Below are positions 1,366-62,658 of a stretch of DNA of 64,000 nucleotides, in pieces. This stretch comes from Muscardinus avellanarius (taxonomy: Eukaryota > Chordata > Mammalia > Rodentia > Gliridae), in the NCBI GenBank assembly GCA_963383645.1, contig OY726561.1:135239404-135303403 (forward strand), written 5' to 3'. Both the position numbers and the translations under genes were made by a program. Below the pieces are notes generated by a model, which saw nothing but the letters and a program-made list of their open reading frames with translations, had not been told where the DNA came from and did not search any database. Every line of letters starts with the position of its first letter. Positions within the stretch are counted from its first letter, which is position 1.

Positions 1366-1381
1366 CACATACTACATTTAA
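1366..1381. repeat. Target-site duplication, left copy (element copy 1)
   Basis: CACATACTACATTTAA here is repeated exactly at 4149-4164. A 16-bp perfect direct repeat next to a poly(T) is the signature of L1-type target-primed reverse transcription. It also implies a fairly recent insertion. Confidence 0.93.
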
Positions 1382-1397
1382 TTTTTTTTAATTTTAT

Positions 1398-1403
1398 TTT
1401 ATT
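1398..1403 (-). terminator. L1 3'UTR polyadenylation signal (AATAAA), copy 1
   Basis: On the minus strand, GTGCACCAATAAAAT lies just before the poly(A). The same block ends copy 2 (62094) and the L1 3' ends at 28.57 and 38.43 kb. Confidence 0.75.
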
Positions 1404-1740
1404 GGTGCACTGTATTCATACATCATAGTAGGATACATACTTTTGTAGACATACATGCACACATCGCCCAGTCAGCCCCCACCCGATCCCCACCCTATTC
1501 CCTCCCCATCCCTCCCTCCCATGCTTGGCTTAGTGGTTGACATCTAGTATTATAGCAATTTATCCAAAATTAGAAATGATAATCTCACATAACAGTTTCA
1601 TTTGTCTGATACCAAGCTTTTGATGACTTAAAGATAACATTTCAATATTTCTTTTTGCTTTCTTTCTTACCAGAGAATATTTTTTTCTTTTTTTTAGGTG
1701 AAACTATCATATATTTATTTTTCAGAAAAAAATCTATCCT

Positions 1741-2412
1741 GATATGGAATATGGACTCTAGATACCCAAAACAATCTCGAAGCAAAAACAAAGCTAGAAG
1801 ATGTATATTTTCTGATTTCAAACCATATAAAGCTACAATAATTGAAACAGTGTAGTACTGTTCTAAAGGCAGATATATAGACCATTGGAGTTAAATACAA
1901 GCCTAGAGCTAACTTCTTCCCTATATTGTCAAGTTATTTTTGACAAGGTTTCCACGAACATTTGGTGGTGGAAATAATAATCTTTTAACTAAATATTGTT
2001 GAAAAATAATAATTACATGGAAAAGAATAAAATTGGACCCTTACCTAATCCCACATACAAGTATTAACTCAAAATAGATAAAAAACCTAAATATAAATCT
2101 TAAGACTATAAGCTTTTAGGAGAAAATCTGGGTCATAAAACCTCACAACATTGAAATTGGCAGTGATTTCTTGGATATGATTTCAATGGCACAAGCAACA
2201 GAAGAATATACAAGCTCCCTAAAAAATAAAAGAAAATATTGTATATCCAAAGACAATGTAAACAGAGTTAAAAGTTACTAATAGAATTGGATAAAATATT
2301 TCCAAATGCTATATCTGAAGGTATATTAATATTCCAACTAGAAATCCTAAAAATTAACAACAATAAAGGCAAACAATACAATTTAGAGATAGGTAAAAGA
2401 CTAACATAAATA
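1741..2412 (+). pseudogene. Inverted L1 ORF2 3' fragment inside copy 1
   Basis: Read on the plus strand, opposite to its host element, this matches the region of L1 ORF2 downstream of the reverse-transcriptase core. Landmarks are the stretch that in other L1s reads GACTTCAAACTATACTACAA (here near 1815-1840), the segment around TTGGACCCTTACCT (2034-2047), and the AGGTAAAAGACTAACA block (2391-2406) that corresponds to the usual GGCAAAGGAYCTGAACAGAC. It has stops in every frame and encodes no protein. The same fragment with the same ends is inverted in copy 2. Confidence 0.82.
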
Positions 2413-2436
2413 ATGGATCTCCACAGATAACCAATC

Positions 2437-3354
2437 TTAGTTGTCTGTTGGATGGAAACTCTTGTTTCTCTGGTTCTGGTGAGTGTTACCTATTTCTTCT
2501 TTGTAGTTAATCTCTTTGAGTATTTTCTCTAGCGCTGGTTTTGAAGACATAAATTCCTTCAGTTTCTGTTTGTCATGGAAGCTTCTTATTTCTCCATCTA
2601 GTTTGATAGAAAGTTTTGCTGGATAGGAAATTTTTGGCTGGAAGTTGTTTTCTTTCAGAGTTTGGAATATGTTACTCCAAGCCCTTCTGGCTCTCATGAC
2701 TTGGTTTGGGAAGTCTGGAGTGATTCTAATTGGTTTGCCTCTGAATGTCACTTGGCCCTTTGTTTTTGTTGCCTTTAAGATTCTCTGCTTGGCTTCCACA
2801 TTGGTCATTTTGACAATTATGTGGCGTGGGGATCCTCTTCTCGGATCCTGTCTAAAGGGAGTTCTATAAGTTTCCTGGATCTGTGTATCAACCTCTTGCT
2901 CTATATTTGGAAAATTTTCTGCTATTCCTTCCTTGAAGAGATTGTTGATCCCTTTGGTATCACTTTCTTTTCCCTCCTCTATTCCAATTATTCTTAGGTT
3001 AGCTCTCTTAAGATGGGCCCATATTTCTTCAATGTCAGATTCCTGCTGTTGGATATCTTTTTCTAGATTAGAAACTATGCATTCATTTTTGGATTGCTCA
3101 TCTTCTAAGAGCGAGATTCTTTTCTCCATGTGGTCTAATCGGTTGTTTGTGCTTTGAATTGAGGCCTTTACTTCATTAATTGCATCCTTTATCTCTTTTT
3201 GGCTCTCTCTGAGTTCTTTTCGAAGCACCTCTATTATTTCTACAGTTATGTTCCTGATTTGATCTTCTATAAATCTCTGATTTTCTGTTTTATCAGGTTC
3301 TGATGTTGTGGGGTTGTGCACATTCATTGCTCCAGAGTTATTCCTCTTTCCCAT
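2437..3354 (-). CDS. LINE-1 ORF1 protein (nucleic-acid chaperone), intact, copy 1
   Basis: L1 ORF1p is a trimeric RNA-binding protein that coats L1 RNA in cytoplasmic particles and acts as a nucleic-acid chaperone during target-primed reverse transcription. I start at the MGKRNN methionine because L1 ORF1p typically begins MGK; the frame is open 15 codons further upstream but begins there with GTG and has no ATG. Length is 305 codons, within the usual mammalian range (human 338). In order: a charged N-terminal tail; a long heptad-rich coiled coil (about residues 25-115); an RRM domain starting near NLRIIGIEEG; and a C-terminal domain with RHIIVKMTNVEAKQRIL, RRAW and YPAKLS motifs. No stop or frameshift. 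No ORF2 follows; an inverted ORF2 fragment takes its place. Whether it is transcribed cannot be seen. Confidence 0.93.
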   Translation of the reverse strand: MGKRNNSGAMNVHNPTTSEPDKTENQRFIEDQIRNITVEIIEVLRKELRESQKEIKDAINEVKASIQSTNNRLDHMEKRISLLEDEQSKNECIVSNLEKDIQQQESDIEEIWAHLKRANLRIIGIEEGKESDTKGINNLFKEGIAENFPNIEQEVDTQIQETYRTPFRQDPRRGSPRHIIVKMTNVEAKQRILKATKTKGQVTFRGKPIRITPDFPNQVMRARRAWSNIFQTLKENNFQPKISYPAKLSIKLDGEIRSFHDKQKLKEFMSSKPALEKILKEINYKEEIGNTHQNQRNKSFHPTDN

Positions 3355-4148
3355 GATTTCGGAGGTTTGTGCCTTCTCTGGGTTCTTCCCTTGGGTCACT
3401 ATGGCTTCACTTAAGGTGCTCTGGATCTCGAGTCTGTATTATCTCAGAACCTACTAATCCTTTACTGGGTTGTATCACAGAGTCTCCGACCCAGGGAGTC
3501 GATAGAGGCTGCTTTAAACTATGGGGGGTGCCAGGTTGCACGCTCTCCTATGGTGTGATATCTCTGCCACCACTACTCCCTCACTGGGTCAAGTCCCAGG
3601 AGGCACAATACTGGGATTTCTCCTCTGTGGCCCGCAATTTGACTCACTGTTCTTGAGTACGTAGATGTAGCTGTACTGGACTCGGTGAATTCACTGCTGC
3701 TGCCGCCGCCGGTGGCAATATGGCGCCTCTGCCACGCCCTTGGCCATGAGGCTGGCGTATTTTTTCTTCTCTGGTTTTGATTTCCACTCTGAATCCCTGC
3801 AGCATGTGCTGAGCTCAGCCACTGGGAGCTTTAAATGCTGTCTGCGCCGAAAGATCCCGCCTGGCTGTTCCGCGTCGGCTCACCTCGGCTTGCTGTAGCC
3901 TTCCGCTGAGTTCACCGCTGCCGCCGGCAGTATGGCGCTGCTGCCGCGTCCTCGGGCGCGTGTGTCTCCTCTGTGGCCCTGAGCTCTGTTCTCAGTCCGC
4001 TTTCTCTCTGGAGACTGGTGGTTTTTTTGTTTTTCTGGTGTTGGTGTTTTCTGGCTATGAAAGGCGCTCTTTTTGTGGTAATGGAGATTGGTTGTTAGCG
4101 GGACTCTTAAGCCCCGCTTTTCTCGGTCGCCATCTTCCCGGAAGTCCC
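3355..4148 (-). promoter_or_regulatory. L1-type 5'UTR / internal promoter, copy 1
   Basis: A GC-rich leader of about 0.79 kb precedes ORF1. Its first bases, read on the minus strand, combine an ETS-like CTTCCGG and a YY1-like AAGATGGCG (4129-4137). This recalls human L1, where a YY1 site near +13 sets the transcription start. Repeated GCCGCCGGC/CAGCAGC blocks follow. The leader is nearly the same length as that of copy 2. Promoter activity is inferred. Confidence 0.65.
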
Positions 4149-4164
4149 CACATACTACATTTAA
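4149..4164. repeat. Target-site duplication, right copy (element copy 1)
   Basis: Exact repeat of 1366-1381, marking the 5' end of the inserted element. Confidence 0.93.
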
Positions 4165-9780: not shown

Positions 9781-11200
9781 GGCTGATACTCCTTTGAAAA
9801 TTTCAAGTACTATTATGTTCTGTGAGTGGCAATACTAATTTACAATCTCATCAACCAGGGTCATGGGTGATGGGGCTCATGACACTGGGATGGGAACATC
9901 TGTGAGCACCACAGTACTCAAGGACCCTGCCTCTCACAGGACTCAAAGATCTTGCCTCTCCAAACCCTTCTGAAATACTGTCCCCTTCCCTGTTCCATCG
10001 TGCCTACAGGAGTGGTGCTGACTTTCTGTCCCCATTTCTTTGATGTTCGCTACATAAGCAAGATATGGACCAAGATTTGAACTAAGCATGGTCTGGAAGG
10101 TGAAATGAATTACCAGGCATAGAAGTTAAAGGTTAACCCAGAAATAATTTCAGGTTCATTGTCAGGGGAAGCATGGGAGACATAAATATTGAGAGTGTTT
10201 AAATAGTGAGGGTGTACCAGAACCTTAAGTAAGCCAGAATATTCTTATGTTATAGGTGTGCTCATCAGATCCTACCTGCTTGGACCCTCGGCTGGATTCC
10301 AGCAGCTTAATATCTGCATTAATAAAAATCTCTACTGATAACTAACCCATGCTGGGTGAACCCAAAAGGCCAGAAAACTCTGCAGAAATATGGAGAAGGG
10401 AAATCAAAGACCTACTCTATTGCAATTTTCTAAAAAGATTCTTCTATTTCTCTTGCCTTGAAAAATATATAATTTAAAAATCAGAATCTATTTAAAATGC
10501 TGTACTGATAGTCCGTGCAGGGCCAAGAATACTGTGGATGAGAATCAGTGGTCTTTGGAGATGTTAGAAATCTAAGGGTCCCTGTTGTTCTGGATAGATG
10601 GAATAATCCTAGGGTGAAACCGCCTGGGGTATGGAGGAAACAAAGCAGTTTGGACTCTAAATAGGCATGTTTGTAAGTGTTACAGTCAGTACTCAGTGAG
10701 TGGTCCTGCCCAGTAGCTAGTTGTGATTAATCCACCGTGAGGCCCCTAGAGACCACGACCACATCACCCTCTGCATTTCTTAAGCTAGGTTATGCTGCGG
10801 TAAACTCCAGCATCACAAATGCCAAAGATGTCAATCTCACTCACTCAACTCATTATTATTTTTAATTTTTTTTAATGAGAGTGAGTTGGGGGATGGGGCC
10901 TGAGGGAGGGACCATTACCATCAAAGTTACCTAGGGTCCCAAACTCATAAAGCATCCATCACATGAAATGATGGCGGTCACAGTCCAGACAAAAAGGGAG
11001 ATCTGGAATATTTCATACCAGCAATTAAATACTCAGCCTCATAGGAGAGACCTTGGTGATTTCTTATTGGCTAATCCCACTCAGCCAAAAAGAGGCCAGG
11101 AAATGCAATCCTGCTATATACTTAAAAGGGAGAACCACACTCCTCTATGGACCTACAACTCCACGAGGAAGTTCCTGTGGTGTCTTAAAAACAATGGAAT
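9781..11200. other. Unassigned non-coding sequence
   Basis: No recognisable gene or repeat over about 1.4 kb. Open frames are short and featureless. Confidence 0.4.
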
Positions 11201-19440: not shown

Positions 19441-19617
19441 GATGATGGGAGGGTGGTATGACTGGAGAGAACATGGATGCTCCATGCCATGTCCCATACC
19501 TTGACCTATGCATTTCTTCCTTTAGGCTGATCTGGGCCGTAACCTTTATAATCAGTCCCAATTGTAAGGAAGGGCCTTCTTGACTTCTGCAAGCCAAGCT
19601 AGCAAATTACTCAAACT

Positions 19618-19828
19618 GCATATAATTTTTTTTTTTTTGGTGGTACTGGGGTTCCTGGAAACTCTCTACCTCTGGGCTACACTCCCAGACCTATTTTTAT
19701 ATTTTTAAAATTTGGAAACAGGGTCTCTTAAGCCAGCGTGGCTGGCTTCGAACCTGCACGATCCTCCTGTCTCCGCCTCCCAAGCACGGGGATTACAAGC
19801 ATGCGCCACCACACCTGGCTGCATATAA
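19618..19828 (-). mobile_element. B1-dID SINE, young, with target duplications
   Basis: Element 19627-19819 in minus orientation with a complete head (CATGCGCCACCACACCTGGC). TGCATATAA occurs on both sides (19618-19626 and 19820-19828). Confidence 0.9.
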
Positions 19829-23035: not shown

Positions 23036-24064
23036 AAAGGAGTGGTAAATGAGGCCCAGAGAGGGTGAAGACCTCGCTTATGGTCGGACAGCCAGAGCTC
23101 AGGCTGTTGATTGCAGAGTCCATGCGTCTCACTGCTGCTAACGTCAAATGACGAAGCCACAGGGAATCGTGTATGTGCCGTGACTGCAGCTACGAGGATG
23201 TATATAGAACATTCCCTTACACTGTCATATCGTGTTATTGTAATAAAGATAATAAAAACCAGCACGCCTCAAACTGACTACAGCTTTATCCAGCTGCAAC
23301 AGTATTTCTAGCACCTCTCTTACATTTTCCTTCAATTTAAACAATGTTTGCAATATAAGAATAATAGACACAGCACACACAAAAATCATATACGCGAAAG
23401 GGCGTAAAATGCAAAGTAAAGAATCCCTCCCCAATACTCCTCTTCCACCATGAGATAACCACGGTTAGCATTTTCTTGTACATCTCTCCAAAATATGTTC
23501 TGCATTTAAAATAGTGAACACACACATACACAGAGGTACATGTACAATACAACACGCACGCGCTCCACCCTTAGCTTGGATACACATGCGAAAGCAGCCT
23601 CGTGATTGGCTCCTGTTTTATTTATGATAAATTGGAACACCAAGATATTTCTCACATAAAGTGTTATTAAGTTTCCATCTCTCCATCTTGTGCGGGGGTT
23701 TTTCCCCCTCACTTAAATGTAGGATATTTTATGTCTTCTTATTACGTTTCATGTAGCTGGTTGTGTTCTAGCATTCCAGTGAATTGAATCTTTTTTTTTT
23801 TAATCCTGGTCCTAAAGTATAGAAGCTTTCTCTCTCACAAATCTCATAAGCATGCCCTGATTTTCCAGGCCTGGAGGAAAAAGCTGCAGGGCAGAGTGAG
23901 GGTTGGTTTATGAGGGTTGCTATAACAGTAAAGCAAAAAGAACCTACTAGAAGGTTACCAACGGTTGTCTGAATAATGGGGGAAATATTTTCACTTTTTG
24001 CTCTTCTCTGTCTTTCAAATGTTTAGCAATGAGCAAGGTCAGTGTTGTCATTATAGAAAGGACA
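23036..24064. other. Unassigned non-coding sequence
   Basis: AT-rich, no gene. A stretch near 23820-24060 has no repeat match I can name. Confidence 0.35.
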
Positions 24065-25917: not shown

Positions 25918-26798
25918 AGAGGGTTTAAGATGGCCACGGCAGCAGCCAGGATTCTGAAGATGCAGACAAAACATATCCAGCTGACCTGGAACTTTTGGAA
26001 AAATCCCCGTGAAGGGTGACAGCTTCTTCCTTACATGTTTAAGAATTCTGGACATCATCTGTAAGGAGGGAGCTCAGTGGAGAACTAGGAGGAAGGTGGT
26101 GGCGGCAGTGGCGGCAGCGGTGGCTGCGGTGGCGGTGGAGGCTAGTATTTGGGAGAGGCAGAGATCTGATCCAACCCACCCTCATCTTCTGAAGAAATTG
26201 CCCCAAAGGTGGGATGCTACCCTCGCACATGCTCAGGAATACTGGACAACATGCAGTGTGGGAAAAGAGTTTGGGAAAGAATTGAGATGGTGGAGGCAGC
26301 GGCAACGACAGCGGCCAGTATTCAGGAGAGTCAGAGATCTGATGCAACACACCTGGATCTCTTGAAGAAATAACCCCAGAGGCAGAACACTACCACCGCG
26401 CATGCTTGGAACTTGGGACAACATGCTGTGTGAAGAGGGTGCTGGGAAGAGAACCGAGATGGCTATGACAGCAGCAGCAGTGGTTAGTATTTGGTAGAGA
26501 TAGAGATTCAATCCAATCCACATCATTATTTTAAAGAAATATCCTCAAAGGTACACCGCTACTGCTGCACATGCTCGGGAATTCTGGAAAACAAACTGTG
26601 TGGGAAGGGTGCTTGGGAGAGAACCGAGATGGCAGTGGCAGCAGCAGCAGTGGTGGTGACCAGAGTTTGTAGGGGCAGTCAGATCCAGTCCAGTCCACTG
26701 TGAACTACTGAGGAAATCTCCCCAAAAGTAGACTGCTCCTCCCACATATGATTGGGATTTCTGGACAACATGCTAAGTGGTAAAAGGGTTTGGGGGGT
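25918..26798 (+). repeat. Five tandem ~170-bp monomers (L1 5'UTR-monomer-like)
   Basis: Units start near 25918, 26081, 26281, 26451 and 26621. Each opens with a GA-rich box ending in a variant of GAGATGG/AAGATGG, then CAG/GGC triplets, GTATT, CAGAGATCTGATCCA, a GAAGAAAT block, and ends with GACAACATGCTGTGTG. Lengths are about 163, 200, 170, 170 and 178. The design recalls rodent L1 5'UTR promoter monomers; the AAGATGGCC of unit 1 fits a YY1 site. Confidence 0.75.
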
Positions 26799-27068
26799 TT
26801 CAGAGGGAGTCCCACATGGTCAGGGTGGACCACCACACTGCGGGTTCTGGGAATCATCAGCCTTCATGGCCACCATGCTCCTCTGCGCAGAGTGGGAGGC
26901 CAGGGTATGTATTCGGAGAGCAGAGCCTGCTCTCCGAAGTGAAGCTGTGGACCTCTGCCTTTGGAGGGAGAACAAAATTTTATTGTCACCGGGTATCTGG
27001 GGTCCCAGCTTCCGCAAAAGACATGTAGTGCTCCCTCATATTTAAAAATAAAAAAAAAAATCAAAGAA
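26799..27068 (+). repeat. Tether block with A-rich end
   Basis: Follows the last monomer: GGGAGTCCCACATGGTCAGG, then GAAGCTGTGGACCTCTGCCT and GTATCTGGGGTCCCAGCTTC, ending in an A-rich run at 27044-27060. Also present inverted at 18885-19090. Confidence 0.72.
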
Positions 27069-27266
27069 CGCCAGGCATGGTAGCACATGCTTGTAATCCC
27101 TTCACTTGGGAGGCAGAGACAGGAGGATTGCTCAGGCTCCAGGCCAGCCTTGCTGGCTTGAGAGACCCTGTTTTCAAATAAAACTATATATATTTTTAAA
27201 AAGTGGGTCCCTGAAAGTAAATCCAGAGGTGGAAGGGTTTCCAGGAACCCCAGTACCACCAAAAAA
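27069..27266 (+). mobile_element. B1-dID SINE within the composite
   Basis: Head GCCAGGCATGGTAGCACATG, GCCTTGCTGGCTTGAGAGAC, ID half GTTTCCAGGAACCCCAGTAC. The tail is AAAAAA then a run of ten G. No direct repeat of its own is visible. Confidence 0.87.
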
Positions 27267-27364
27267 GGGGGGGGGGAAGGGACCATCTGTAGACGACCTG
27301 CTCATAGTGACAGAGAACAGAGCCTGATGCACAACAAGACAGCAAGGCTGGAGGTGGAGCCTCG

Positions 27365-28190
27365 GAGGCCAGGATAGGAGCCTGCCAGGCGGCTAGGCCA
27401 GTGCTGGGGCAGTGAGGCCCATATCGGAGCCTGCTGTGAGGCAAAGCCAGTGCTGGGGCCTCGGAGGCTGGGATCTGAGCCTGCCGAGGGGTGAGGCTGC
27501 TGTCGGGGCCAGCAAGGATGAGATCGGGGCCTGATGTGAGGCAAGGCAGGTGCTGGGGCCTCCGAGGCCGGGATCTGAGCCTCCCAAGGGGTGAGGACAG
27601 TGTCGGGATCAGCAAGGCTGGGATTGGAGCCTGCTGAGAGGTAAGGCTGGTGCTTGGGCCAGTGAAACCAGGATCGTAGCCTACTGAGAGGCAAGGCCGG
27701 TGCTGGGGCCTCCGAGGCCAGAATTGGAACCTGCCGAGGGGTGAGACTGGTATCGGGGCCAGCAAGGCCAAGATCAGAGCCTGCCATGAGACACGACCAT
27801 TGCTGGGGATTCGGAGGCAGAGATTGGAGCCTGCCGAGGGGTGAGGTTGGTACCGGGGCTAGTGAGATTGGGATTGGAGTTTGCCGTGAGGCAAGGCCAG
27901 TGCTGGGGCCTCGGAGGCTGGGATTGGAGCCTACTGAGGGGGGAGGCCGGTGCTGGAGTCAGCAAGGCTGGGATCGGTGTCTGCCATTTGGTGAGGCTGT
28001 AGCTGGAGCCAGTGAGGCCGAAATAGGAGCTAGCCTAAAGACAAGGCCGGTGCTGGGGCCCCCAAGGCTGGGATCAGAGCCTGCCACGAGACAAGGCCGG
28101 TACTGGAACCAGCAAGGCTGGGAGCAGAATTTACTGGGTGGCCAGGCCTGTGCTAGGGCCTTCAAGAGTAGGATTGAAACTTGTAAAGCG
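27365..28190 (+). repeat. VNTR of 50-bp GC-rich units (about 16 copies, A/B alternation)
   Basis: Each unit begins GAGGC or AAGGC and runs 50 bases. Type A contains GCCGAGGGGTGAGG and ends CCAGC or CCAGT; type B contains GTGAGGCAAGGCC and ends GGGGCCTCG or CCTCC. Types mostly alternate, giving a 100-bp higher-order period. Long Pro/Ala/Ser-rich or Gly/Arg-rich frames across it on both strands result from the repeat. Confidence 0.93.
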
Positions 28191-28194
28191 GCAT

Positions 28195-28616
28195 ACACAA
28201 AGAAATATCACAGAAAATTTAAAAAATCGGATGCTCTCCCTAATATGCAAAACTAGGAAGAAATGGGTAATAGGAGGGAATATAATGGAAGAAGTGACCA
28301 ATCAGAGGGGAGGGGATGGGGGAAGATGGCATCTCTTTAAAGCACATGATGTATGTAAATAAATATATCAATGTTAAACAGTAAATCAAGCATGGGATTG
28401 AGGAAGGGTGAAGGAGTGGGATGGGGATTGGATAAAGGTTGATTGGACGATGTGTACTTGGATATCCTAACAAGTCTTGTATTCCATTGTGATGTTTGAC
28501 TACAGTGCACCAATGCATGTATGTCTACGCAAGTCTTTTATCCCATTATGATGTATGAATACAGTGCATCAATAAAAAATTTAATTAAAAAAACCCCAAA
28601 AAACCAAAACAAAAAC
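28195..28616 (+). mobile_element. L1 3' end closing the composite
   Basis: AAATCGGATGCTCTCCCTAA matches the same point in the L1 at 38130. The 3'UTR carries GGGATGGGGATTGG, and the end CAGTGCATCAATAAAAAATT is followed by an A-rich tail. A second, near-duplicate end block (CAGTGCACCAATGCATGTAT, 28502) precedes it. Confidence 0.82.
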
Positions 28617-59318: not shown

Positions 59319-59333
59319 AAGAAATATAAGAGA
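59319..59333. repeat. Target-site duplication, left (element copy 2)
   Basis: AAGAAATATAAGA here matches AAGAAATATAAGA at 62129-62141. Confidence 0.85.
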
Positions 59334-60126
59334 GGACTTCCGGGAAGATGGTGACCGAGAAAAGCGGGGCTTAAGAGCCCCGCTAACAACCAATCTCCAT
59401 TACCACAAAATCAGCGCCTTTCATAGCCAGAAAACACCATCACCAGAGAAACAAAAAAAGCACCAGGCTCCAGAGAGAAAGCGGAGTGAGAACAGAGCTC
59501 AGAGCCACAGAGGAGATACACCGGCCTCACGCCCAAGGACGTGGCAGCAACACCATACTGCTGGCGGCAGCAGCGAGTTCACCGGACGGCTACAGCAAGC
59601 TGAGGTGAGCCGCTGCGGAACAGCCAGGCGGGATTTCTCGGCGCAGGGAGCATCTAAAGCTCCCAGTGGCTGAGCTCAGCACACGCTACAGGGATTCAGA
59701 GTGGAACTCAAAACCAAGAAGAAATACAGCAGCCTCACAGCCGAGGGCGTAGCAGTGGCGCCATATTGCCACCGGCGGCAGCAGCAGCGAATTCACTGAG
59801 TCCAGTACAGCTAGATCTGCATACTCAAGAACAGTGAGTCAAATTGCGGGCCACAGAGGAGAAATCCCAGTACTGTACTCCCTGGGACTTGACCCAGTGG
59901 GGGAGTGGCGGTGGCAGAGATATCACACCATAGGAGAACGTGCAACCTGGCATCCCCCACAGTCTAAAGCAGCCTCTATCGACTCTCTGGGTCGAAGACT
60001 CTGTGATAAAACCCAGTAAAGGAGTAGTGGGGTCTGAGATACTACTGACTCGAGATCCAGAACACCTTAAGTGAAGTCATAGTGACCCAAGGGAAGAACC
60101 CAGAGAAGGCACAAACTTCCGAAATC
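59334..60126 (+). promoter_or_regulatory. L1-type 5'UTR / internal promoter, copy 2
   Basis: CTTCCGG (59337-59343) and AAGATGG (59345-59351) open the leader. The copy 1 AAGATGGCG is AAGATGGTG here, a CpG decay. GCAAGCTGAGGTGAGC at 59595-59610 contains a good splice-donor consensus, also kept in copy 1. Confidence 0.62.
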
Positions 60127-61044
60127 ATGGGAAAGAGGAATAATACTGGAGCAATGAATGCCCACAACCCCACAACATCAGAACCTGATAAAATAGAAAA
60201 TCAGAGATTTCTAGAAGATCAAATCAGGAAAATAACTGTAGAAATAATAGAGGTGCTTCGAAAAGAACTCAGAGAGAACCAAAAAGAGATAAAAGATGCA
60301 ATTAATGAAGTAAAGGCCTCAATTCAAAGCACAAACAGCCGATTAGACCACATGGAGAGCAGAATCTCGCTCTTAGAAGATGATCATTACAAAAATGAAC
60401 GCATAGTTTCTAATCTTGGAAAAAATATCCGACAGCAGGAATCTGATATTGAAGAAATATGGGCCCATTTTAAGAGAGCTAACCTAAGAATAATTGGAAT
60501 AGAGGAGGGAAAAGAAAGTGAAACCAAAGGGATCAACAATCTCTTCAAGGAAGTAATAGCAGAAAATTTTCCAAACATAGAGCAAGAGGTTGATACACAG
60601 GTCCAGGAAACTTATAGAACTCCCTTTAGACAGGATCAGAGAAGAGGATCCCCACGCCACATAATTGTCAAAATGACCAATGTGGAAGCCAAGCAGAGAA
60701 TCTTAAAGGCAACAAAAACAAAGGGCCAAGTGACATTCAGAGGCAAACCAATTAGAATCACTCCAGACTTCCCAAACCAAGTCATGAGAGCCAGAAGGGC
60801 TTGGAGTAACATATTCCAAACTCTGAAAGAAAACAACTTCCAGCCAAAAATTCCCTACCCAGCAAAACTTTCTATCAAATTAGATGGAGAAATAAGAAGC
60901 TTCCATGACAAACAGAAACTGAAGGAATTTATGTCTTCAAAACCAGCACTAGAGAAAATACTCAAAGAGATTAACTACAAAGAAGAAATAGGTAACACAC
61001 ACCAGAACCAGAGAAACAAGATTTTCCATCCAACAGACAACTAA
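60127..61044 (+). CDS. LINE-1 ORF1 protein (nucleic-acid chaperone), intact, copy 2
   Basis: L1 ORF1p binds L1 RNA as a trimer and chaperones nucleic acids in target-primed reverse transcription. The MGKRNN methionine is taken as the start; upstream the open frame begins only with GTG. 305 codons, no break. Coiled coil about residues 25-115, RRM from NLRIIGIEEG, then the RRAW and YPAKLS motifs of the C-terminal domain. Over the whole open frame (320 codons) it differs from copy 1 at 22 residues by my count. Twenty of these are in the first 186, so the RNA-binding half is almost unchanged. No ORF2 follows; the next sequence is the inverted ORF2 fragment. Confidence 0.93.
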   Translation: MGKRNNTGAMNAHNPTTSEPDKIENQRFLEDQIRKITVEIIEVLRKELRENQKEIKDAINEVKASIQSTNSRLDHMESRISLLEDDHYKNERIVSNLGKNIRQQESDIEEIWAHFKRANLRIIGIEEGKESETKGINNLFKEVIAENFPNIEQEVDTQVQETYRTPFRQDQRRGSPRHIIVKMTNVEAKQRILKATKTKGQVTFRGKPIRITPDFPNQVMRARRAWSNIFQTLKENNFQPKIPYPAKLSIKLDGEIRSFHDKQKLKEFMSSKPALEKILKEINYKEEIGNTHQNQRNKIFHPTDN

Positions 61045-61049
61045 GATTG

Positions 61050-61760
61050 GTTATCTGTGGAGATTCATTATTTATGTTAGTCTTTTACCTATCTCTAAAT
61101 TGTATTGTTTGCCTTTATTGTCGTTAATTTTTAGAATTTCTAGTTGGAATATTAATATACCTTCAGATATAGCATTTGGAAATATTTTATCCCATTCTAT
61201 TAGTAACTTTTAACTCTGTTTACATTGTCTTTGAATATACTATATTTTTTTTTATTTTTTAGGGAGTTTATTTACCCTTTTGTTGCCTGTGCCATTGAAA
61301 TCATATCCAAGAAACCACTGCCAATTTCAGTGTTGTGAGGTTTTATGACCCAGATTTTCTCCTAAAAGTTTATAGTCTTTAGATTTATATTTAGGTCTTT
61401 TATCTATTTTGAGTTAATATTTGTATATGGGGTTAGGTAAGGTCCAATTTTATTCTTTTCCATGTAATTATTATTTTTCAACAATATTTAGTTAAAAGAT
61501 TATTATTTCCACCACCAAATGTTCATGGAAACCTTGTCAAAAATAACTTGACAATATAGGGAAGAATTTAGCTCTAGGCTTTTATTTAACTCCAATGGTT
61601 TATATATCTGCCTTTAGAATAGTACTACACTTTTTCAATTATTGTAGCTTTATATGGTTTGAAATCATAAAATATATATCTTCTAGCTTTGTTCTTTTTC
61701 AAGATCGTTTTGGGTATCTAGAGTCCATATTCCATATTAGGATAGATTTTTTTTTCTGAA
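61050..61760 (-). pseudogene. Inverted L1 ORF2 3' fragment inside copy 2
   Basis: Antisense ORF2: on the minus strand it reads from AGCTAGAAGATATATATTTT and ATAGACCATTGGAG (near 61590-61690) through GGACCTTACCTAACCCCAT (near 61425-61445) to AGATAGGTAAAAGACTAACA (61076-61095). Ends match those in copy 1. On the element's sense strand a long T-run ending in ATTTTTTAG (61254-61262) gives a strong acceptor-like site. Confidence 0.82.
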
Positions 61761-62093
61761 AAATAAATATATAAATATATGATAGTTTCACCTATAAAAA
61801 TAGAAAAAAATATTCTCTGGTAAGAAAGAAAGTAAAAAGAAATATTGAAATGTTATCTTTAAGTCATTGAAAGCTTGGTATCAGAACAAATGAAACTGTT
61901 ATGTGAGATTATCATTTTTAATTTTGGATAAATTGCTAAAATACTAGATGTCAACCACTAAGCCAAGCATGGGAGGGAGAGGGAGGGATGGGGAGAGAAT
62001 GGGGTGGGGATCAGGTGGGGGCTGACTGGGCGATGTGTGCATGTATGTCTACAAAAGTTTGTATCCCACTATGATGTATGAATACAGTGCACC

Positions 62094-62099
62094 AATAAA
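62094..62099 (+). terminator. L1 3'UTR polyadenylation signal (AATAAA), copy 2
   Basis: AATACAGTGCACCAATAAAA just before the poly(A). Confidence 0.78.
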
Positions 62100-62128
62100 A
62101 AAAAAAACAGTGAGTTCAAAAAAAAAAA

Positions 62129-62141
62129 AAGAAATATAAGA
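62129..62141. repeat. Target-site duplication, right (element copy 2)
   Basis: AAGAAATATAAGA; partner of 59319-59331. Confidence 0.85.
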
Positions 62142-62399
62142 AAGAGAATTCTGAATCCTGATCTTTAATATGATGAAAGGCCTCACAGTAAGTATACGAA
62201 AATAGAGGAGGAAATGGATATTAAGAAAGAATCAGAAAGAGGCTTGGAATGAAATGAAAGAATAAATAAATGAAATGACGAAAGCAATAGAAAGAAATTC
62301 TCGAAGATTAGATGAAATGGAAAACAGAATATCACTGTTAGAAGACAGTTTATTTAAAACTGAAAGCACAGTCAATAGTATACAGAAGACATTATAACA

Positions 62400-62658
62400 A
62401 CAGAACCTAAACAGCCAACAACTACGGGACAACATGAAACGTCCTAACTTACAAATAAAAGGTAGCCCACGGAACCTTCTCCAAAATATATCAAATGCTG
62501 GGCCACAAGGTAAATGCCAGCAAATTCAAAAGACAAAATATAATTCCCTGCATCTTTTCAGATCACAATGGAATGAAAATGGAAATCAACAACAGGAAGA
62601 CCAAAAGAAACTATTTAAATACATGGTGAATGAGGAGTGTTTAAGATCAGAAATAAGG
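62400..62658 (+). pseudogene. Older L1, ORF2 endonuclease C-terminal part, decayed
   Basis: Resembles the ORF2 stretch after the endonuclease: AACCTTCTCCAAAATATATC, CAGATCACAATGGAATGAAA, CAACAACAGGAAGACCAAAA. Cut by the LTR at 62658. Confidence 0.72.

Follow-up and report, generated by a model that had tools for sequence, protein, structure and literature searches.

A probable HAL1-type half-L1 family of Muscardinus avellanarius whose 3'UTR, shared with open-ORF2 L1s, holds an antisense ORF2 block

Two retrotransposon copies in a 64,000-nucleotide stretch of the Muscardinus avellanarius genome (hereafter the window, meaning the whole stretch that was analysed) very probably belong to an abundant HAL1-type half-L1 family, which consists of a 5'UTR, ORF1, a 3'UTR and poly(A), lacks ORF2 and presumably relies on L1 ORF2p acting in trans. 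We place them there because their likeness to L1 ends 1 bp after the ORF1 stop and resumes in a 3'UTR that the two kinds of element share. As in HAL1s, the ORF1p gene is derived from L1, as seen from its Pfam domains and from its 89-94% identity to the L1 ORF1 of the same genome; ORF2 is missing, and only a decayed antisense piece follows ORF1; an L1 3' end, poly(A) and target duplications are found in both window copies and in four of six others; and the element has amplified as a family, its junction recurring at 19,784 places. It was the rearranged form as a whole that was copied and inserted, with poly(A) and target duplications.

The two window copies (copy 1, 1382-4148, minus strand; copy 2, 59334-62128, plus strand) lie in opposite orientation and align end to end over 2781 columns with 93.5% identity. 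Both have the same order of 5'UTR, ORF1, antisense ORF2 block, unclassified stretch, L1 3'UTR and poly(A) (Table 1), and the alignment puts the two inversion junctions at identical positions in the two copies. The 5'UTR of copy 1 is about 73-76% identical to that of related L1s across the approximately 510-545 bp in reach. The two target duplications differ in sequence, the flanks gave no match better than E 0.077 within 1.2 kb on each side, and beyond these flanks there are only SINE-like matches. The first-pass annotation of this DNA had the element order, the coordinates and both junctions right, and the alignment of the copies that it proposed has now been run, with an end-to-end match, common junctions and unrelated flanks as the outcome. 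It had further given each copy its own duplication, which holds, as does the perfect 16 bp of copy 1; the roughly 13 bp read for copy 2 had to be corrected to 15 matches in 16. At its very end (62100-62128), copy 2 has two A tracts split by CAGTGAGTTC, possibly a short 3' transduction from the source locus. An old L1 relic with similarity to ORF1 and endonuclease (62218-62587) adjoins the same copy.

Table 1. Positions of the parts of the two half-L1 copies and their target duplications in the window.
Feature	Position	Strand	Basis or remark
Copy 1 target duplication, 3' side of element	1366-1381		CACATACTACATTTAA; 16/16 identical to 4149-4164
Copy 1 L1 3'UTR and A-rich tail	~1382-1555	-	within 1382-1697
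Copy 1 unclassified stretch	~1556-1697	-	within 1382-1697
Copy 1 antisense ORF2 block (fossil)	1698-2436	-	match to human ORF2p; stops common to copy 2; outer end approximate
Copy 1 ORF1, 305 aa, open	2437-3354	-	Pfam domains
Copy 1 L1 5'UTR	3355-4148	-	alignment with copy 2; comparison with related L1s
Copy 1 target duplication, 5' side of element	4149-4164		16/16 with 1366-1381
Copy 2 target duplication, 5' side	59319-59334		15/16 with 62129-62144
Copy 2 L1 5'UTR	59335-60126	+	alignment; L1 comparison
Copy 2 ORF1, 305 aa, open	60127-61044	+	Pfam; 89-94% DNA identity to ORF1 of 11 fetched L1s
Copy 2 antisense block, first part	61045-61202	+	essentially confined to half-L1; absent from L051 and L052
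Copy 2 antisense ORF2 block, remainder	61203-61790	+	common to 3'UTR of L1s with 1278-aa ORF2 frame
Copy 2 unclassified stretch	61791-61935	+	present in same L1 3'UTR (L051)
Copy 2 L1 3'UTR	61936-62128	+	G-rich tract, AATAAA, two A tracts; resembles older window L1 3' ends and L051
Copy 2 target duplication, 3' side	62129-62144		15/16 with 59319-59334

An important aspect of these copies is how often their junctions recur. Searched as a 25-mer with up to 2 mismatches, the junction between the ORF1 stop and the antisense block occurs at 9,864 + 9,920 = 19,784 places in the 2.5-Gb genome, with none for the reversed-pattern control, and the second junction, between the unclassified stretch and the 3' end, at 23,739 places (control 0). 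For contig C1, 91 exact first-junction places are listed in the part up to 20.33 Mb; 42 of them have a second junction within 3 kb in the right order, and 38 of these 42 pairs are spaced 876-911 bp apart; two pairs had the wrong order, the pairing covering exact matches among the places listed. The ratio of first-junction counts (about 890 bp from the 3' end) to second-junction counts (near the 3' end) is 0.83, and few family copies seem to be 5'-truncated between the two, in contrast to most L1s. We fetched eight junction loci, which are the first exact places on C1 and no random draw: the antisense block is present in all eight (in L028 its first 345 bp only), the full-length ORF1 region in seven (L029 is 5'-truncated) and the 3'UTR in seven (it is interrupted in L028). 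Of the six testable full-length copies, four (L025, L027, L030 and L031) are enclosed by target duplications, which are 13-16 bp long and mismatched at one position at most; none was found for L024 and L026, nor for the older relative L023 described below. Comparisons of family-copy ends with other loci gave nothing but scores of 8 and 9, and the truncated L029 has an A-rich 13-bp match. L027 has a block-like target duplication, and a further copy is found on the opposite strand, which suggests that L027 landed in the antisense block of a different copy of the family. The claim that the rearranged form was itself copied and makes up a family is thus borne out by the 19,784 junction places, the block in 8/8 loci and the duplications in 4/6, the junction search that the first-pass annotation suggested having been run in the animal's own genome.

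Twenty 10-kb stretches of the same genome contained one further relative, L011, completed as L023. L023 has a 5'UTR (65%) and, of ORF1, the first ~165 bp and the last ~60 codons, these two pieces being separated by about 1.9 kb of other repeats. Downstream of ORF1 it has the block (83.5%), then the unclassified stretch and, last, the 3'UTR. In non-coding DNA nine family copies lie 0.020-0.045 (K2P) from their majority sequence, and L023 lies at 0.134.

The 305-aa ORF1 product of both copies contains the Pfam domains Transposase_22 and Tnp_22_dsRBD and is a standard L1 ORF1 protein; the frame is open in four of nine family copies. Selection may have kept ORF1, and the evidence from sequence comparison is mixed. 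In the C-terminal part, 11 of 567 positions are changed between copy 1 and copy 2 against 50 of 1037 in non-coding DNA (p 0.004), and 6 of 159 against 128 of 997 between L023 and copy 2 (p 0.0004), with p values of 0.0024 to 0.046 when the same comparison is made between L023 and five other copies. Over its whole length, ORF1 differs between copies 1 and 2 to an extent that is not significantly below that of non-coding DNA (p 0.22). The changes in ORF1 shared among family copies, 13 of 43 of them silent, do not depart from neutral (p 0.32), and neither do the 22 amino-acid-changing and 9 silent differences between copies 1 and 2 (P 0.20).

The antisense block matches human L1 ORF2p at residues 847-1081 (E 5.4e-23), and it is the decayed fossil of a different and much older L1 lineage. 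All eight in-frame stops of the copy 1 block recur in copy 2, where there is one more stop that copy 1 lacks. Simulated neutral decay produced at least eight stops in 15% of runs at 0.3 substitutions per site, in 7% at 0.25, and in no more than 2% at 0.2 or lower. The identity of the block to five further ORF2 copies from this genome is 51-57%, and these five are themselves 65-83% alike. Constraint on the block is not supported: it has 39 differences in 721 positions, and the remainder of the 3' part has 11 in 316 (p 0.21). The sequence at 61067-61094, in the 5' part of the block, occurs at 19,531 places, compared with 19,784 for the ORF1 junction. At 38 kb the window contains an older L1 whose ORF2 C-terminus is recognisable; no block precedes the 3' end of this L1.

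We searched for L1 copies of the same genome with an endonuclease stretch of an old L1 as query and scored 150 of 22,786 candidates. The scored matches included many that fall within an open ORF2 frame of 1278 aa, and 48 of these were taken from contigs C1-C4. Twelve L1 loci were fetched, among them L039, the locus from which the query came; in the remaining eleven, L040-L050, the frame at the match is open for 121-459 aa, hence these are not intact L1s. ORF1 lies upstream of ORF2 in all eleven, with 89-94% DNA identity to the half-L1 ORF1, and half-L1 and L1 are alike until 1 bp past the ORF1 stop and then diverge. In L023 the L1 similarity extends, by eye, about 17 bp further past ORF1 than in the younger copies, pointing to a small deletion that the ORF1 junction underwent later. 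An ORF2 frame of 1278 aa is found in an L1 at C1:38240060, preceded by the same spacer and by the last 112 ORF1 codons, which are open (ORF1 of this L1 was read in these 112 codons only). The 3' end of this L1, fetched as L051, consists of the end of ORF2 and about 40 bp that by eye resemble the beginning of the 3'UTR in older L1s. The antisense block, the unclassified stretch and the 3' end follow, the block beginning about 157 bp further in than that of the half-L1. A single L1 thus combines the end of ORF1, a 1278-aa ORF2 frame and the block. The exact L1-type junction lies 3842 bp downstream in 21 of the 48 typed 1278-aa L1s, and the junction occurs at 768 places in the genome (control 0). 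Of the 27 such L1s without an exact junction, one was chosen for that reason and fetched (L052); it has the junction with 2 mismatches, and the block.

Because open-ORF2 L1s (L051 and L052, with the exact L1-type junction in 21 of 48) have the block in the same place, what looked like an inverted ORF2 is part of a 3'UTR common to L1 and half-L1. The 1278-aa-frame L1s include many with near-equal scores, and L1 looks recently active in this genome. The ground squirrel has been cited as a case of LINE and SINE quiescence (PMC5857283). Two old full-length L1-like copies, L022 (1118-7332) and L006 (3481-9158), have a 5'UTR, ORF2 and a 3'UTR, and ORF1 was not found between the 5'UTR and ORF2 of either; either ORF1 has decayed or been lost there, or an ORF2-only lineage once existed.

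Several other explanations have to be weighed against a HAL1-type half-L1. The first-pass annotation had seen in the inverted ORF2 piece what sets the element apart from HAL1. Such a new composite class of LINE, with an inverted tail of its own making (by twin priming, template switching or recombination) that HAL1 lacks, would fit a tail that is antisense ORF2, whose two junctions are common to the copies and whose first ~157 bp are essentially family-only. Yet all eight stops of copy 1 are shared, the block is only 51-57% identical to ORF2 copies that are 65-83% alike, and L1s with an open ORF2 have the same block as 3'UTR, which leaves the composite class improbable and the supposed distinction from HAL1 unsupported, the piece being a decayed fossil that also sits in the 3'UTR of 1278-aa-ORF2 L1s. 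What stands of that reading is a rearranged family that was copied, with ORF1 and no usable ORF2 (ORF1 is open in both copies, and the ORF2 piece is decayed and antisense). The annotation was also right that twin priming of a single copy is inadequate: we reject self-inversion of this kind, as a sense 5'UTR and ORF1 precede the block, and the block comes from another L1 lineage and is decayed.

A split LINE, with ORF1 and ORF2 on two mutually dependent families, was suggested by the ORF2-bearing L022 and L006 and their want of a recognisable ORF1. It was rejected on the strength of L040-L050 and the L1 at C1:38240060, given that ORF1 precedes ORF2 in 11/11 fetched younger L1s and the end of ORF1 adjoins a 1278-aa ORF2, and we regard it as extremely unlikely. 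Less probable still, to the point of being negligible, is a segmental duplication or a pair of independent accidents, with which a distance of less than 58 kb between the two copies would agree, but not 19,784 junction places genome-wide; segmental duplication in particular is rejected because the target duplications differ and the flanks are unrelated, with SINE-like matches only further out.

If the family is a HAL1-type half-L1, its RNA would presumably be transcribed from its own 5'UTR, and ORF1p presumably made from that RNA and used. Insertion would proceed by target-primed reverse transcription with ORF2p supplied in trans by L1, a borrowed reverse transcriptase being implied because ORF2 is missing and target duplications are present. 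The half-L1 itself may have arisen by deletion of ORF2 or by template switching; about 157 bp of its block are missing from L051, and therefore it is no simple deletion of that exact L1.

This leads us to the question of which element held the 3'UTR first. Tentatively, and with somewhat less than even confidence, we suggest that the long 3'UTR with its antisense fossil existed first in the half-L1 and was later acquired by the autonomous L1 via recombination or template switching. In favour of the half-L1 as the earlier holder, the 5' part of the block is about as numerous as the half-L1 junctions (19,531 and 19,784), which makes it essentially half-L1-only, and L1s with this 3'UTR are few (768) beside the abundant half-L1. 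The presence of the block in the old relative L023, and its absence before the 3' end of the older window L1, point the same way. On the other side, subtracting 19,784 and 768 from the 23,739 second-junction places leaves about 3,200, some of which may be L1s that have their breakpoints elsewhere. Moreover, the two L1 copies in a small tree of the block group with L023 (support 0.62), with no supported nesting among the half-L1 copies.

Among known systems, the closest are the HAL1s. HAL1s are described as ORF1-only L1s with poly(A) and target duplications (PMC5322556) that arose several times (PMC5753468) and are thought to be L1-dependent (PMC5322556, PMC5753468, PMC4161310), and HAL1 families less than 1% from their consensus are tabulated for guinea pig and marmoset (PMC3183009). 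The half-L1 of this genome likewise derives from L1, has ORF1 alone, and shows both poly(A) and target duplications, but its 3'UTR contains a long fossil stretch of another L1 lineage in antisense, which it shares with open-ORF2 L1s. Twin-primed, 5'-inverted L1 insertions (PMC2837659, PMC12016303) also have L1 sequence of the opposite strand between a single pair of target duplications. In these the inversion takes up the 5' part of the insertion and derives from the same RNA, whereas in the half-L1 a sense 5'UTR and ORF1 precede a fossil of another lineage, so that neither a single RNA nor an inverted 5' end is found. SVA-type composites are non-autonomous, are presumed to use L1 proteins and may hold antisense pieces; in contrast to them, the half-L1 encodes L1 ORF1 and has L1 UTRs at both ends.

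The window contains a second composite repeat (~26000-28579) of GC-rich tandem units of about 50 bp, an L1 3' end and an A-rich tail, in an SVA-like layout, for which no target duplication was found. Similar GC-rich composite pieces occur in L002 (1147-6072), L005 (473-2904) and L013 (7983-6264), and inside L023 (1166-3107).

A family of such size may well be catalogued already. The accessible parts of the literature on HAL1 and squirrel retrotransposons do not describe the element, a literature search found nothing on HAL1 in Ictidomys, and the matches listed for 'half-LINE' or 'inverted ORF2' held nothing on the subject. Pattern searches with ORF1 and with DNA gave nothing informative in contigs of viruses and prokaryotes, and neither did phage and plasmid records or Rfam.

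Our results carry a caution, namely that an antisense ORF2 piece within an element can be an old 3'UTR fossil and no trace of twin priming. They also describe a half-L1 family of some 20,000 places that coexists with open-ORF2 L1s having the same unusual 3'UTR. This pair offers a natural setting for asking whether ORF1p acts on its own RNA, what the 3'UTR of an L1 must contain, and whether a parasite can return a 3' end to its host element. If the half-L1 was indeed the earlier holder of this 3'UTR, a non-autonomous element would have given a new 3' end to the element on which it depends.
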